Shown here: piece by piece, positions 55,735 through 61,023 of the stretch | Position numbering within the stretch: the stretch's first letter is position 1 | Layout: the number at the start of each line of letters is the position of its first letter | Assembly: GCF_004216475.1 (NCBI RefSeq) | Contig: NZ_CP022303.1 | Location: 4,154,001 to 4,218,000, forward strand | Direction: 5' to 3' | Length of the DNA stretch: 64,000 nt | From: Thalassococcus sp. S3 | GTDB taxonomy: Bacteria; Pseudomonadota; Alphaproteobacteria; Rhodobacterales; Rhodobacteraceae | The notes under the pieces: model-generated | The model's input: the letters and a program-made list of their open reading frames with translations, nothing else | Database searches by the model: none | Told to the model about the DNA's origin: nothing | Program-made: the position numbers and the translations under genes

Positions 55735-55884
55735 GCAACACCCCCTTCTTCTTCTCGATAAAAATACGGAAACACCCCGCTATATGCCGGGACCTTCCAT
55801 CGCCCAGCTCGCGCTCCCCGCCCATGCCGGGCGGTCAAAGATGTCGCGCGCGGCCTTGGCCGCGCTCCGCTTGGTCACAGCCGG

Positions 55885-56664
55885 TCAGACCGTGCGCTCG
55901 ACCATCATCTTCTTGATCTCGGCAATCGCCTTGGCCGGGTTCAGCCCCTTTGGACAGGTCTTCGCGCAGTTCATGATCGTGTGGCACCGATAAAGCTTGA
56001 AAGGATCCTCCAGATCATCCAGCCGCTCTCCGGTCGCTTCGTCCCGGCTGTCGATAATCCAGCGATAGGCGTGCAGCAGAGCTGCCGGCCCCAGATACCG
56101 ATCCCCGTTCCACCAATACGAGGGACACGCCGTCGAGCATGACGCACACATCACGCATTCATAGAGCCCGTCGAGTTTCTTACGATCCTCGATCGACTGT
56201 CGCCATTCCTTCGCCGGTCGGTTTGTCTTGGTCTCAAGCCAGGGCATGATCGACGCGTGCTGCGCGTAGAAATGCGTCAGATCCGGGATCAGGTCCTTGA
56301 CCACCGGCATATGCGGCAGCGGATAGATCTTAACGTCGCCCTTGATCTCATCCATGCCGTAGATGCAGGCCAGCGTATTGATCCCGTCGATGTTCATCGC
56401 GCAGGATCCGCAAATCCCCTCGCGGCACGAACGACGGAAGGTCAGCGTCGGATCGATCTCGTTCTTGATCTTGATCAGCGCATCCAGAACCATCGGCCCG
56501 CAAGTGTCCATGTCCACCCAATAGGTGTCCACGCGGGGGTTCTCCCCGTCATCGGGGTTCCAGCGATAAATGCTGAATTTGCGCAAGTTGGTCGCGCCGT
56601 CCGGTTTGGGCCAGGTCTTGCCCGTCTTGATGCGCGAGTTTTTCGGGAGTGTCAGTTGAACCAT
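55885..56664 (-). CDS. sdhB: succinate dehydrogenase iron-sulfur subunit
   Basis: A 259-residue subunit carrying the [2Fe-2S], [4Fe-4S] and [3Fe-4S] centres that pass electrons from FAD to quinone. The three cysteine groups are [26 protein letters not shown] (first), [19 protein letters not shown] and [17 protein letters not shown]. The gene is separated from sdhA by a lipoprotein gene, a chimeric ORF and an FkbM gene on the same strand. Its N-terminus is repeated in the chimeric ORF at 57538-57765. A weak hairpin between FkbM and sdhB may modulate read-through. Confidence 0.97.
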
Positions 56665-56836
56665 GTCTCGATTTACCTTTCCCGTTCAAAGACGTTTGAT
56701 ATCTGCAGGGCGTGCCGTTTGGGTGCCCGCGAAATGTTGTGGGGTGTGTTCGCAAAGCATTCCGGGCCAGCCGCGTTGTCGTGGTATGCCGCGACGGCCC
56801 TAGGGTCGAAAAGCCATGCGGGATTTTGGCCATACG

Positions 56837-57541
56837 TCATGCCGACCACCTTGTGAAAAGAATGTCAAAGTGGCGGGGGCGCGCGTATTTGCCCGGCGCG
56901 TGCGACACGGCCAAAACATCGCGAAATTCAAGGCCCGCCTTTGCCAGAAGGTCGATCATCACGCTCGGCGCCGCCAGATTGGCAAAGCGCTCCGTTACCG
57001 ACATCTCAAGGATCACGAAAACACATCTCTTCAAGGTCTCGGGGCCGCCATTGAGTATATTCAGCTCATAACCTTCCGTATCAATCTTCAGGCCAACCGA
57101 TCCGGGGTACTCCTTCGCGATGTCGTCAAGACGCACCACATCGACATCCCTGCGCTCCACCGATGTGAACGTGTCTTTCAGGTGGTCTTTCCGCTCCATC
57201 AGGCTGGCCATCGCACCGCCCTTGCCCGGTTCCGTCGTCGGTATCTCCAACACAGCACGTTCGTTGCCGGCACCCAGCGCGGTCGCGTGAAAATCGAAAT
57301 CCTTGAGCAGTCCGGACCCGCGAACGGCCTCTTCCGCTTCGGGTTTTGGATCGACCAGAACAAACTTCGTATCCGGGAATGTTTTGTAGAGAAACGGGGT
57401 CCCCTGATGGACCCCAACATCGAACACGACATCCGGGCGGAAGTCATAGCCCTTCAAATAGCCCGCGCTTGCCTTGTCGGCCCGGACAAGAAAGCCCTCT
57501 TCGCGCAAGGCGCGGCGAAGTTTGGGCACGTCCACGATCAA
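56837..57541 (-). CDS. FkbM family methyltransferase inserted in the sdh operon
   Basis: A 234-residue SAM-dependent methyltransferase of the FkbM family. The SAM site is DVVFDVGVHQGTPFLY near residues 37-52, with VLVDPKPEAEE and the family KIDTEGYELNILNGG near 152-166. FkbM enzymes usually methylate hydroxyls of polyketides or glycans. Its ATG overlaps the stop of the chimeric ORF by four bases (ATGA, 57538-57541), so the two are translationally coupled. The location between sdhA and sdhB is unexpected and is not part of the usual operon. The substrate is unknown. Confidence 0.88.
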   Translation of the reverse strand: MIVDVPKLRRALREEGFLVRADKASAGYLKGYDFRPDVVFDVGVHQGTPFLYKTFPDTKFVLVDPKPEAEEAVRGSGLLKDFDFHATALGAGNERAVLEIPTTEPGKGGAMASLMERKDHLKDTFTSVERRDVDVVRLDDIAKEYPGSVGLKIDTEGYELNILNGGPETLKRCVFVILEMSVTERFANLAAPSVMIDLLAKAGLEFRDVLAVSHAPGKYARPRHFDILFTRWSA

Positions 57542-57765
57542 TACTCGCGCACTTCCGGCGCAACATTCTTCAGGTCGACGCCGTGATCATGGCTGGTCAG
57601 CCGGTTCGGATGCACGCTGAAATAGCTGTTCATGCGCCGGCTCCCCGCATTGTCGGAGCCCTCGGGATCGGTGCTGAACATGCGCTGGTGTACCGCACCG
57701 TAAGGCTTGGGCCACGTCTTGCTCGTATTGATCGGCGACGTTTCGGTCAGAACCAGTTGAGCCAT
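57538..57765 (-). CDS. chimeric small ORF: SdhB-like N-terminus joined to SdhA-like C-terminus
   Basis: A 75-residue ORF. Residues 1-31 match the start of SdhB (18 of 31 identical by hand, including KTWPKP and the GA that follows); residues 48-75 match the last residues of SdhA (16 of 28 identical, including LTSH and the DLK near the end). The DNA is also similar at both ends. It retains a strong ribosome site (TAAGGAGG, 57773-57780) and ends in an ATGA overlap with the FkbM gene. No cofactor-binding part of either parent remains, so it cannot be an active dehydrogenase. It is probably the scar of a tandem sdhA-sdhB duplication with an internal deletion; whether the peptide has a role is unknown. 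Confidence 0.8.
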   Translation of the reverse strand: MAQLVLTETSPINTSKTWPKPYGAVHQRMFSTDPEGSDNAGSRRMNSYFSVHPNRLTSHDHGVDLKNVAPEVREY

Positions 57766-57777
57766 GTCACATCCTCC

Positions 57778-58146
57778 TTACGAGAGAGCCCGGGCGATCC
57801 CGGCCTCTGCGGTGCAGGTCAGAGTATCGGGCCGCCGCACGATGTCGGTCACCAGGCCCACCGTCTCCCCATCAACCCCGGCCACCGCATCCTGGGCCAG
57901 ACTGTTGATTTCCAGGGCCGAGGCATTGTCGATCACGCAATCGGTAAACGGGATCAGGTTGGCGGAGGTTGCCGCGTCGAACCGGGTGAAGAGGACCTCA
58001 TTCACCGTCTTCTTCGCCGCCTCCCGGGCCACCTCATTGGCCGTCTCGTTCACGACATTGCACGCGACCAGCGCCATGCAGCCCATCCCGATCGTGAGCG
58101 CGGCGCGCGAGCCCCGGCAGACGGATATGAGGTGCAGACGCGTCAC
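57778..58146 (-). CDS. small lipoprotein of the sdh operon
   Basis: A 122-residue protein with a lipobox ending at Cys29 (LVAC), preceded by a basic, hydrophobic leader. The mature part has VNETANEVAREAAKKTVNEV and a pair of cysteines (FTDCVIDN and DTLTCTAE), which may form a disulfide. Genes of this type, of unknown function, occur in sdh operons of Rhodobacterales in my recollection. It is 4 bp after sdhA and directly before the chimeric ORF; its stop contributes to that ORF's ribosome site. Confidence 0.75.
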   Translation of the reverse strand: MTRLHLISVCRGSRAALTIGMGCMALVACNVVNETANEVAREAAKKTVNEVLFTRFDAATSANLIPFTDCVIDNASALEINSLAQDAVAGVDGETVGLVTDIVRRPDTLTCTAEAGIARALS

Positions 58147-58150
58147 GCCG

Positions 58151-59956
58151 TCAGTAAACCCGCGCTTTCGGCGCGATTTTCTTCAGGTCGATGCCGCCAT
58201 CATTGTGGCTGGTGAGCGGGTTGAGATGCACGCCGCGATAGCCAAGGCTCGCCTGATTGCCTTTGAACCAGACCAGGCTGTGCTTGCGCCAGGTCTCATC
58301 ATCGCGGTCGGGGTAGTCCTCATGCGCATGCGCGCCCCGGCTCTCCTTCCGCGCGGCGGCCGCGGTGATCGTGGCCACGGCGTTGGGCATCAGGTTGGTC
58401 AGCTCCAGCGTCTCCATCAGGTCTGAATTCCAGACCATGGAGGTGTCCGTCACTTTCACATCCGACAGCTTCTCGGCCACGCCTTCCATCTTCTCCTGAC
58501 CCTCGGCCAGCGTTTTGTCGGTCCGGAAGACCGCAGCGTCCTGCTGCATCGTCTTCTGCATCTCCAACCGCAGTTCCGCCGTGGGCACGTGCCCTTTGGC
58601 ATAGCGCAGCCCGTCAAAGCGGCTGAGCGCGGCTTCGACCGACCGCCGGTTCGGCGTCGGCACGGCTGTCTTCGGATCGACAACCTGACCCGCGCGGATC
58701 GCCGCGGCCCGGCCAAAGACGACGAGGTCGATCAGCGAGTTTGAGCCCAGCCGGTTCGCCCCATGCACCGAAGCGCAGCCTGCCTCACCCACAGCCATCA
58801 GGCCCGGTGCGACGTGATCGGGGTTATCCTTGGTCGGCGCCAGAACCTCGCCCCAATAGTTGGTGGGAATGCCGCCCATATTGTAATGCACAGTCGGCAG
58901 AACCGGGATCGGCTCTTTCGTGACATCGACACCTGCGAAGATCCGTGCGCTTTCCGAAATACCCGGCAAACGTTCAGCCAGCGTTTCGGGGGGCAGGTGG
59001 TTGAGGTGGAGGTGAATGTGATCACCGTCCTTGCCCACACCGCGCCCTTCGCGGATCTCCATCGTCATGCAGCGTGACACCACATCGCGAGAGGCGAGGT
59101 CCTTGTAGGTCGGCGCATAGCGCTCCATGAACCGCTCACCTTCGGAGTTGGTGAGGTAGCCGCCCTCGCCGCGTGCACCTTCGGTGATCAGGCAGCCGGC
59201 GCCATAGATACCTGTCGGGTGGAACTGCACGAATTCCATATCTTGCAGCGGCAGACCTGCGCGGGCCGTCATGCCGCCGCCGTCGCCCGTGCAAGTATGG
59301 GCGGAGGTCGCACTGAAATAGGCGCGGCCATAACCGCCCGTGGCCAGCACCACCATCTTGGCCGCGAAAAGGTGCAGTGTGCCGTCATCCAGCTTCCAGC
59401 AGAGAACGCCCTGGCAGACCCCGTCATCGTCCATGATCAGGTCGATGGCGAAATACTCGATGTAGAATTCCGCGTTGTTCTTCAGACTTTGCCCGTAAAG
59501 CGTATGCAGGATCGCGTGGCCCGTGCGGTCGGCGGCCGCACAGGTGCGCTGCACTGGGGGGCCTTCGCCGAATTCCGTGGTATGCCCGCCAAAAGGCCGC
59601 TGATAGATCTTGCCCTCTTCGGTACGCGAGAAGGGCACACCGTAGTGCTCCAGCTCGTAGACCGCCTTGGGCGCCTCGCGAGCGAGGTATTCCATCGCAT
59701 CCGTATCGCCCAGCCAGTCCGACCCCTTCACGGTGTCGTACATATGCCACTGCCAGCTGTCCGGGCCCATATTGCCAAGGCTCGCCGCGATGCCGCCCTG
59801 GGCCGCCACCGTGTGCGACCGGGTGGGGAACACCTTGGTTACACAGGCCGTCCGCAGGCCCTGTTCCGCCATGCCGAGTGTGGCGCGCAACCCCGCGCCG
59901 CCAGCGCCCACGACCACGACGTCATATTCATGCGTCTCGTAATCATATGCAGCCAT
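58151..59956 (-). CDS. sdhA: succinate dehydrogenase flavoprotein subunit
   Basis: A 601-residue FAD protein catalysing succinate to fumarate. The FAD motif [19 protein letters not shown] is at the N-terminus, with the covalent flavin histidine in [17 protein letters not shown]. Active-site segments [17 protein letters not shown] and the substrate loop with HxxxxGGI-like [13 protein letters not shown] follow; the C-terminus [18 protein letters not shown] is typical. It precedes the lipoprotein gene by 4 bp and follows sdhD. Confidence 0.98.
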
Positions 59957-59978
59957 ATCTTCTTCTCCCTTTGCGGAG

Positions 59979-60350
59979 TTACAATGCCAGCCGCGCGATG
60001 GCGAAAAGGCCGGTCGCGGCGGCGGCGTAGCTGAGGCAGACCATCAGGATGATCAGCACTTTTTGGTTCAGACCATGGACATAGTCCTCGATCAGGACCT
60101 GAACACCGTCCTTGAAATGCATGAACGCGACAACGATGGTCAGCGCGGCCACGATCGCCGGGAAGGGGCGCGCGAAGTAGTCTGTCACCGTCGCGTAATC
60201 CTGGCCCAGCATCGGACCAAAGGTCAGCAGGAAGGCCGGGATCAGGAACAACAGAGCGACCGAACTTACCTTCATCGCCCAGAAGTGGGCCGTGCCGGTT
60301 TTGGCCGATCCCATACCCTCCGCGCGTTTGCGGTCTGTGAGATAACGCAT
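59979..60350 (-). CDS. sdhD: succinate dehydrogenase membrane anchor subunit
   Basis: A 123-residue membrane protein with three helices that helps bind heme b and ubiquinone. The segments [20 protein letters not shown] and [19 protein letters not shown] contain the conserved histidine and the DxxH-like region of SdhD. It is encoded between sdhC and sdhA on the same strand, with small gaps of 11 and 22 bp. Length is typical. Confidence 0.92.
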
Positions 60351-60361
60351 CTTCGGCCTCC

Positions 60362-60745
60362 TTATATCACAAGCGCCGTCAGGATGGTCAGCACGACCGA
60401 ACCGCCGATGACCGCCCAGCCCAGCTTTTCCGCCGTTTCCAGCTCAAGCCCGATGGCGTTGTCCCAGATCAGATGACGAATGCCCGCCAGCGTGTGATAC
60501 CAAAGCCCCCAGAGAGACAGGAACATCACCAGATCGCCGAACCAGCTGGTGATCACGCCATTCGCGACGGCGAAATGCGCCTCGGATGTCGAAGCGGCCA
60601 TGAACCACCAAACAATCAAAAGAGCAGCGATCAGAATCGCGTTGCCGGTGATCCGGGTCAGGATTGACGTCATGGATGTCAGCTGTGGCCGGTAGATCGT
60701 CAGATGCGGCGAGAGCGGGCGATTGCCCCTGTTTACATCAGCCAT
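60362..60745 (-). CDS. sdhC: succinate dehydrogenase cytochrome b556 subunit
   Basis: A 127-residue integral membrane subunit with three helices. The family start NRGNRPLSPHLTIYRPQLT and the SILTRITGNAILIAAL and YHTLAGIRHLIWD segments (heme-ligand histidine) identify it. I start at ATG 60745, with AAGGAACG upstream; the frame open to 60859 is not SdhC-like before that. It is the first gene of the sdh operon; a palindrome pair at 60861-60890 lies about 115 bp ahead of its start. Confidence 0.94.
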   Translation of the reverse strand: MADVNRGNRPLSPHLTIYRPQLTSMTSILTRITGNAILIAALLIVWWFMAASTSEAHFAVANGVITSWFGDLVMFLSLWGLWYHTLAGIRHLIWDNAIGLELETAEKLGWAVIGGSVVLTILTALVI

Positions 60746-60860
60746 ATACGTTCCTTTCGCGGTGCGCTGCGCAAGGTGTACTCCTTTTTCAGCGTCTGTC
60801 ACGCGCTGCAGCGCGGAAAAGGCGCGGTTTTTTGGCGCGCCCCAGCAATTTTTGGCCATT

Positions 60861-60890
60861 TGTGATCACACGTTTGAAAAGTGTGATCAC
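60861..60890. promoter_or_regulatory. paired GTGATCAC palindromes upstream of sdhC
   Basis: TGTGATCACA (60861-60870, a perfect palindrome) and GTGATCAC (60883-60890) have centres 21 bp apart, two turns of the helix, so a pair of dimers would sit on one face of the DNA. Together they also form a 10-bp inverted repeat (60862-60871 with 60881-60890). They lie 116-145 bp upstream of the sdhC start. An operator for a TCA-cycle or C4-dicarboxylate regulator is the natural reading. Confidence 0.6.
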
Positions 60891-61023
60891 GCTGTCGCGC
60901 AAACTTGACACCTCCCTTGTTCAGATAGGTCGCAAAACCACGTTCCGCAGCAGGAAACCCCGCAAACGGTTACGTTGGGTTTAACCGATGGCAAGATTAC
61001 GCCCGCAGGCCTGGCGGATCGCA

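Follow-up and report, generated by a model that had tools for sequence, protein, structure and literature searches.

A short open reading frame (ORF) that begins like SdhB and ends like SdhA, with the intact genes for both proteins on either side of it, raises the question of how such a chimera arose inside a central metabolic operon and why it has stayed open. The operon lies on the minus strand of the window, the whole stretch of 64,000 nt that was analysed, in the order sdhC-sdhD-sdhA-lipoprotein-chimera-FkbM-172 nt-sdhB, of which the first two genes are taken by us to be sdhC and sdhD from their position in the operon.

Anatomy of the chimeric reading frame

The chimeric junction ORF (57538..57765, minus strand) comprises 75 codons with an ATG start and a TGA stop, as originally predicted. 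Its sdhB-derived head (57619..57765, minus strand) extends over 49 codons without a gap and is identical to the window's own sdhB at 98 of 147 nt, and its sdhA-derived tail (57541..57621, minus strand) of 27 codons, one fewer than in sdhA, is identical to the own sdhA at 62 of 81 nt. At the protein level, residues 1-49 align ungapped with SdhB 1-49, with 21 identities counted on the alignment and a local alignment score of 99, where 2000 shuffles reached 51 at most; residues 41-75 align with SdhA 566-601 with one gap and a score of 83, the maximum of 2000 shuffles being 52. The DNA alignment scores at the two ends (54 and 46) also exceed the maxima of 18 and 19 obtained in 200 mononucleotide shuffles, the query being 451 nt containing the ORF. 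The likeness to SdhB at the start and to SdhA at the end, in protein as well as in DNA, had been read by hand in the original prediction and is borne out by these alignments; the identities counted there, 18 of 31 for SdhB and 16 of 28 for SdhA, agree with the alignments by eye, the latter being 16 of 27 by codon count.

The seam between head and tail (TAT TTC; 57619..57624, minus strand) falls where present-day sdhB and sdhA have CTAT in common, as read by eye; the seam has diverged, and its exact place is uncertain by about one codon. The chimera is devoid of the defining domains of both parents, with only the first 49 of 259 SdhB residues present (no Fer2_3 or 4Fe-4S domain) and only the last 36 SdhA residues aligning (no FAD_binding_2 or Succ_DH_flav_C domain), and no Pfam family matched it at E-values up to 1.

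Both parent genes are intact. The gene sdhA (58151..59956, minus strand), parent of the tail, matches PF00890 and PF02910, and sdhB (55885..56664, minus strand), parent of the head, matches PF13085 and 4Fe-4S families, its product being 99% identical to SdhB of the relative G301. Upstream of the chimera lies a putative small lipoprotein gene (57778..58146, minus strand), which is read as a retained first copy and for which no Pfam family scored above its cut-off. Its start is uncertain, the candidates being GTG 58146, 4 nt past the sdhA stop, and ATG 58077, 73 nt past it; the form in the database (P0089) is 99 aa long. Downstream lies an FkbM-family methyltransferase gene (56837..57535, minus strand; PF05050, E=3.1e-14), separated from sdhB by a spacer of 172 nt (56665..56836, minus strand).

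Among 5.77 billion clustered proteins, the window's own protein, counted on two contigs, was the sole match at E<=0.01. Matches at E<=1e-5 were obtained in 42 of 394 family genomes, own included; except for the ORF itself, they cover at most query residues 1-50 and lie within frames of at least 260 residues, and no other carrier was found among these genomes. In a set of 61 genomes, 19 gave matches at E<=0.001, which are SdhB heads apart from the ORF itself. Orthologues, which the original prediction had named as contrary evidence if they occur without an sdh duplication and amid unrelated neighbours, were thus found neither in the 394 genomes nor, apart from the window's own protein, in the protein database at E<=0.01, where the searches start from shared words or a loose first look and could miss diverged copies. 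Similarly, the 97 sdhA-sdhB spacers of at least 60 nt, out of 109, contain no such seam other than that of the window; the one further hit is a 17-residue reverse-strand match (E=0.006) in L135.

Parentage and probable duplication history

The parents of the chimera were compared within a joint set of 109 operons, own included, for which FkbM carriers were fetched on purpose, so that counts in this set are not frequencies. Three records, L108, L109 and L111, duplicate L278, L133 and L135 and were not included, and the FkbM-alignment scan of named genomes kept 80 of 163 relatives. The own sdhB ranks first of 109 heads when gaps are allowed (98 matches, next 95) and first of 103 in the ungapped comparison, from which L110, L132, L134, L135, L136 and L140 were dropped, as a one-codon gap shifts their tyrosine 48. 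The own sdhA likewise ranks first of 109 tails (62 of 81 matches, next 60), and the ungapped matches of head and tail, added together for each of 103 genomes, amount to 160 for the own genome as compared to 148 for the next. Of the candidate parents compared, those of the window itself come closest, each by a small margin, and internal duplication is supported because the two first ranks fall on separate parent genes.

The order sdhA-FkbM-lipoprotein-sdhB was recorded in 17 of 108 relatives (L116-L129, L133, L138 and L278), with records from Sulfitobacter, Pseudosulfitobacter, Tateyamaria, Roseobacter and Litoreibacter. L296 has the same order with a weak, 30% partial FkbM match, the same as the weak match of G310 in its sdh spacer. 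In seven of the 17 (L116-L118, L120, L122, L126 and L127), FkbM starts 3-5 nt past the sdhA stop. Four Pseudorhodobacter operons (L132, L134, L136 and L140) display sdhA-lipoprotein-FkbM-sdhB as in the window, without a chimera; the swapped order can therefore exist without this seam. In the family sample, four of the eight strongest relatives (G290, G002, G199 and G296) carry FkbM in the sdhA-sdhB interval, in the same orientation as these two genes.

Among the 109 operons, the length of the sdhA-sdhB spacer ranges between 10 nt and 4031 nt, like an insertion hotspot within a central metabolic operon. Two lipoprotein-like genes flank FkbM in Litoreibacter L119, L123 and L125, possibly by another duplication with partial loss, and two lipoprotein-like matches lie ahead of FkbM in Pseudorhodobacter L136. 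An opposite-strand FkbM gene occupies the sdhA-sdhB interval in L141 (Marivita), L142 (Yoonia) and L146 (Ruegeria). The record L133 is titled Enemella evansiae TN21-6, the name of an actinobacterium, and holds a Rhodobacteraceae-type sdh operon with the layout of G002:C11; it is perhaps mislabelled or a mixed assembly.

It is highly probable that one short-junction tandem duplication within the operon left the ORF as its seam. The ancestor would have carried sdhA-FkbM-lipoprotein-sdhB, and duplication of the segment from late sdhA through FkbM and the lipoprotein gene to early sdhB, at a few shared bases, would have produced sdhA-FkbM1-lipo1-(sdhB'-'sdhA')-FkbM2-lipo2-sdhB. Loss of FkbM1 and lipo2 would then have changed the order to lipoprotein-FkbM. 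Both losses are postulated, because no remnant of either is detectable: FkbM1 was not found between sdhA and the lipoprotein gene (185 of 300 shuffles aligned as well), and lipo2 was not found in the 172-nt spacer, its expected site, where the alignment is within the shuffle range (42 of 300 as good). An SdhB-SdhA chimera from tandem duplication in the operon, as originally proposed, is retained, and the full sdhA-lipoprotein-sdhB copy followed by a deletion becomes unnecessary, because the joint of a duplication from late sdhA to early sdhB is already the chimera, and in relatives FkbM is placed ahead of the lipoprotein gene, next after sdhA.

The left flank of the chimera resembles a lipoprotein-sdhB junction, with TAAGGAGG between the lipoprotein stop and the start codon as compared to GCGTAAAGGAGACACCAG in L116, and its right flank resembles an sdhA-FkbM junction, the TGATC at its stop recurring after sdhA in L122 and L127 (two of the seven). 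The head of a downstream gene is joined to the tail of an upstream gene, as in short-junction duplication seams; duplicated copies are not present on both sides, there being one lipoprotein gene on the left and one FkbM gene on the right. The chimera is claimed as a descendant of such a duplication, not as an intact one, and later loss would explain the missing copies. An FkbM-less ancestor with subsequent import of FkbM is a conceivable alternative to the ancestral order, given that 14 relatives, including G137, have a lipoprotein gene at most 60 nt from the sdhA stop and no FkbM.

Divergence of the chimera and translation of FkbM

The head differs from the own sdhB at 15, 17 and 17 sites in the three codon positions and the tail from the own sdhA at 6, 6 and 8, as compared to means of 4.8, 4.4 and 23.9 between the own sdhB and 102 relatives, an average that leaves out rows with a one-codon gap in the head and repeated operons. 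Of the 49 differences in the head, a simple parsimony rule with 44 relatives assigns 39 (14/16/9) to the branch of the chimera and leaves 10 ambiguous (1/1/8). The chimera thus appears to evolve much like unconstrained sequence, with no clear protein-level constraint. Pairwise NG86 estimates are dN 0.38, dS 0.70 and dN/dS about 0.55 for the head (49 codons), and dN 0.26-0.28, dS 0.44 and dN/dS 0.59-0.64 for the tail (27 codons). Weak constraint on the peptide would be compatible with a pairwise dN/dS near 0.6, a ratio that synonymous change in the parents would lower.

The dS between the own sdhB and that of G301, the closest SdhB, is 0.93 (NG86). The duplication is not recent and is perhaps lineage-specific, because the dS of the head is 0.70 as compared to this 0.93; the chimera may postdate the split from G301, where no chimera was found. 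By rpoB, among 35 chosen genomes, G097, G005 and G067 are nearest at 95%, followed by G301, G290, G165 and G137 at 94%; G139 gave no match.

The ribosome-binding site of the chimera, TAAGGAGG at 57773..57780 (minus strand), overlaps the lipoprotein stop codon and is strong, in agreement with the original prediction. The anti-SD duplex formed by the 20 nt upstream of its start (-12.1 kcal/mol) ranks second in strength among seven starts, the others being sdhD (-12.2), sdhA (-8.4), sdhB (-6.3), sdhC (-5.6), the lipoprotein GTG (-3.8) and the FkbM GTG (-2.6), the weakest. The FkbM start is most likely GTG 57535, at which the database form P0002 (232 aa) begins. An ATGA overlap of the chimera with this gene, as predicted earlier, is absent; the junction reads TAT TGA TC GTG, with the GTG 2 nt past the TGA of the chimera. 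A start at TTG 57541 is a less favoured alternative, with a TTGA overlap that has the geometry of ATGA, so that under either start FkbM begins a few nt from the upstream stop or overlaps it, as in coupled pairs. The upstream duplex of the TTG is -6.5 kcal/mol, similar to the -6.3 of sdhB, and FkbM could therefore own a weak ribosome site. In seven relatives, the duplex upstream of FkbM is -4.1 (five) or -6.3 kcal/mol (L120 and L122).

FkbM is a maintained gene under purifying selection, as evident from its dN of 0.34-0.43 as compared to a dS of 1.5-2.5 (NG86) against these seven relatives, dS being not computable for L117; dN/dS is below 0.3 against six of the seven. A sigma-70 scan revealed no internal promoter, and no RNA family reached its gathering threshold in 55800-61000. 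Four terminator-like sites were recorded as compared to a shuffle mean of 1.7; three are on the coding strand, all of them inside FkbM.

With the FkbM start 3-5 nt past the sdhA stop, ribosomes that finish sdhA in the seven relatives could reinitiate at FkbM. In the window, the seam ORF, loaded via the old sdhB ribosome site, would deliver ribosomes to FkbM instead of sdhA. Such coupling would need only the frame, the stop position and the ribosome site, leaving the peptide free to drift. According to PMC10666635, a short gap is of great importance for termination-reinitiation, which drops sharply as the gap lengthens and requires no more of the upstream gene than its last 15 nt; for three gene pairs of E. 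coli, a 2-nt gap reduced it by 5, 20 and 70%. Coupling over long gaps is reported by studies cited there. We infer that the ORF may have replaced sdhA as translational coupler for FkbM. That the seam became an ORF kept by selection only for openness, conveying ribosomes that load at an inherited strong start to a neighbour left stranded in the rearrangement, is a tentative reading, at somewhat under even odds. For the history and the coupling taken together, i.e. a duplication seam that would now serve as translational coupler for FkbM, a rough probability of 0.45 is given. Among the functions originally offered, a leader for FkbM is the best fit, with the role itself conjectural and an idle relic nearly as likely.

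In that case, the same duplication would have left a functionless ORF that is still open by chance and is going to be lost, which is a serious possibility. The codon-position differences without clear protein-level constraint, the failure to find other carriers in the 394 family genomes and the possibility of a ribosome site owned by FkbM, if it starts at the TTG, are all in line with a relic. The frame also stays stop-free in 0.16-0.33 of neutral substitution runs (0.16-0.27 in one simulation and 0.23-0.33 in another), depending on the number of substitutions. However, survival decreases to 0.018-0.045, 0.0005-0.008 and 0.0003-0.002 with indels at 5, 10 and 15% of substitutions, hence 0.0005-0.045 at 5-10%, where the indel rates and the three-quarters share of frame-breaking indels are assumptions. 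The frame, with its one in-frame 3-nt gap, the strong ribosome site and the stop 2 nt before the FkbM GTG have moreover all been kept, and the chimera persists where FkbM1 and lipo2 are traceless; these observations speak against a relic.

Two further explanations depart from this choice. A foreign piece of sdhA tail-FkbM-sdhB could have recombined into a resident sdhA-lipoprotein-sdhB, by sdhB homology on one side and an illegitimate join on the other. A patchy distribution of FkbM (50 of 295 family genomes have a match at E<=0.001), the highly variable sdhA-sdhB spacer and the sdhA-lipoprotein-sdhB operon of G137, whose lipoprotein is the closest in the family sample (57%), lend it some weight, but the own sdhA and the own sdhB are the best of 109 tail and 109 head parents, respectively. 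Nor is a recent import of sdhB supported, the top whole-gene DNA identity being 87% (G301) among the 40 of 51 relatives of equal sdhB length, with 11 of other length left out; a foreign origin is considered unlikely. It is much less probable still that the 75-residue protein has a function of its own, serving succinate dehydrogenase as a decoy or in assembly. An in-frame ORF with a strong ribosome site, the retention of KTWPKP and LTSH and a pairwise dN/dS below 1 would agree with a functional peptide. The even spread of differences over codon positions does not, and for this reason the dominant-negative or assembly peptide originally suggested finds no support; the absence of a Pfam match, the restriction to the first 49 of 259 SdhB residues and the retention of 37 of 76 residues, as compared to about 34 in neutral simulation at equal divergence, point the same way.

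Meaning and comparison with known systems

Judged on sequence comparison, the ORF appears to be a real duplication seam present in this genome alone among the 394 of the family, with a well supported history, a plausible coupling role and an unlikely peptide function. If the coupling is true, the operon is a natural case in which tandem duplication followed by complementary loss altered the gene order and the seam turned into a coupling element. It would show how gene order in a central metabolic operon could change with neither parent gene broken. It would also show how a fusion ORF without meaning of its own could acquire a role immediately, provided that the following gene relies on it for translation. 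Among the small ORFs of operons, those specific to one lineage are often without an assigned role, and some of them could be seams, which can be tested by their flanks.

In the open-licence literature, no account was found of FkbM, succinate dehydrogenase and operon together, of this arrangement in titles on Roseobacter sdh, or of an old seam ORF as coupler after a gene-order swap. The component parts are of known kinds.

The original prediction knew of no described counterpart, but short-junction duplications in S. aureus made nusG'-'sigH and rplK'-'sigH with the same geometry, according to PMC3486894. There too, a downstream gene contributes the head, along with start codon and ribosome site, and is fused in frame to the later part of an upstream gene, with intact parents on both sides; the join in S. 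aureus falls on a short repeat, 8 bp long in clone B1, and may have done so here. The S. aureus fusions differ in being selected, reversible laboratory events (1210 bp in clone B1) with an active fusion protein, whereas the chimera of the window is an old, diverged seam whose flanking copies have seemingly been lost on opposite sides and whose protein looks unconstrained. With termination-reinitiation pairs (PMC10666635, PMC6728339 and PMC12548453), the junction shares a start a few nt from the upstream stop and perhaps a downstream gene whose own ribosome site is weak or lacking; unlike in such pairs, the upstream ORF of the window would be a duplication by-product and not an ordinary gene. 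Tandem duplication-random loss, as reported for mitochondria, similarly changes gene order by duplication and complementary loss, but the window concerns a bacterial operon in which the seam is still readable as an ORF.
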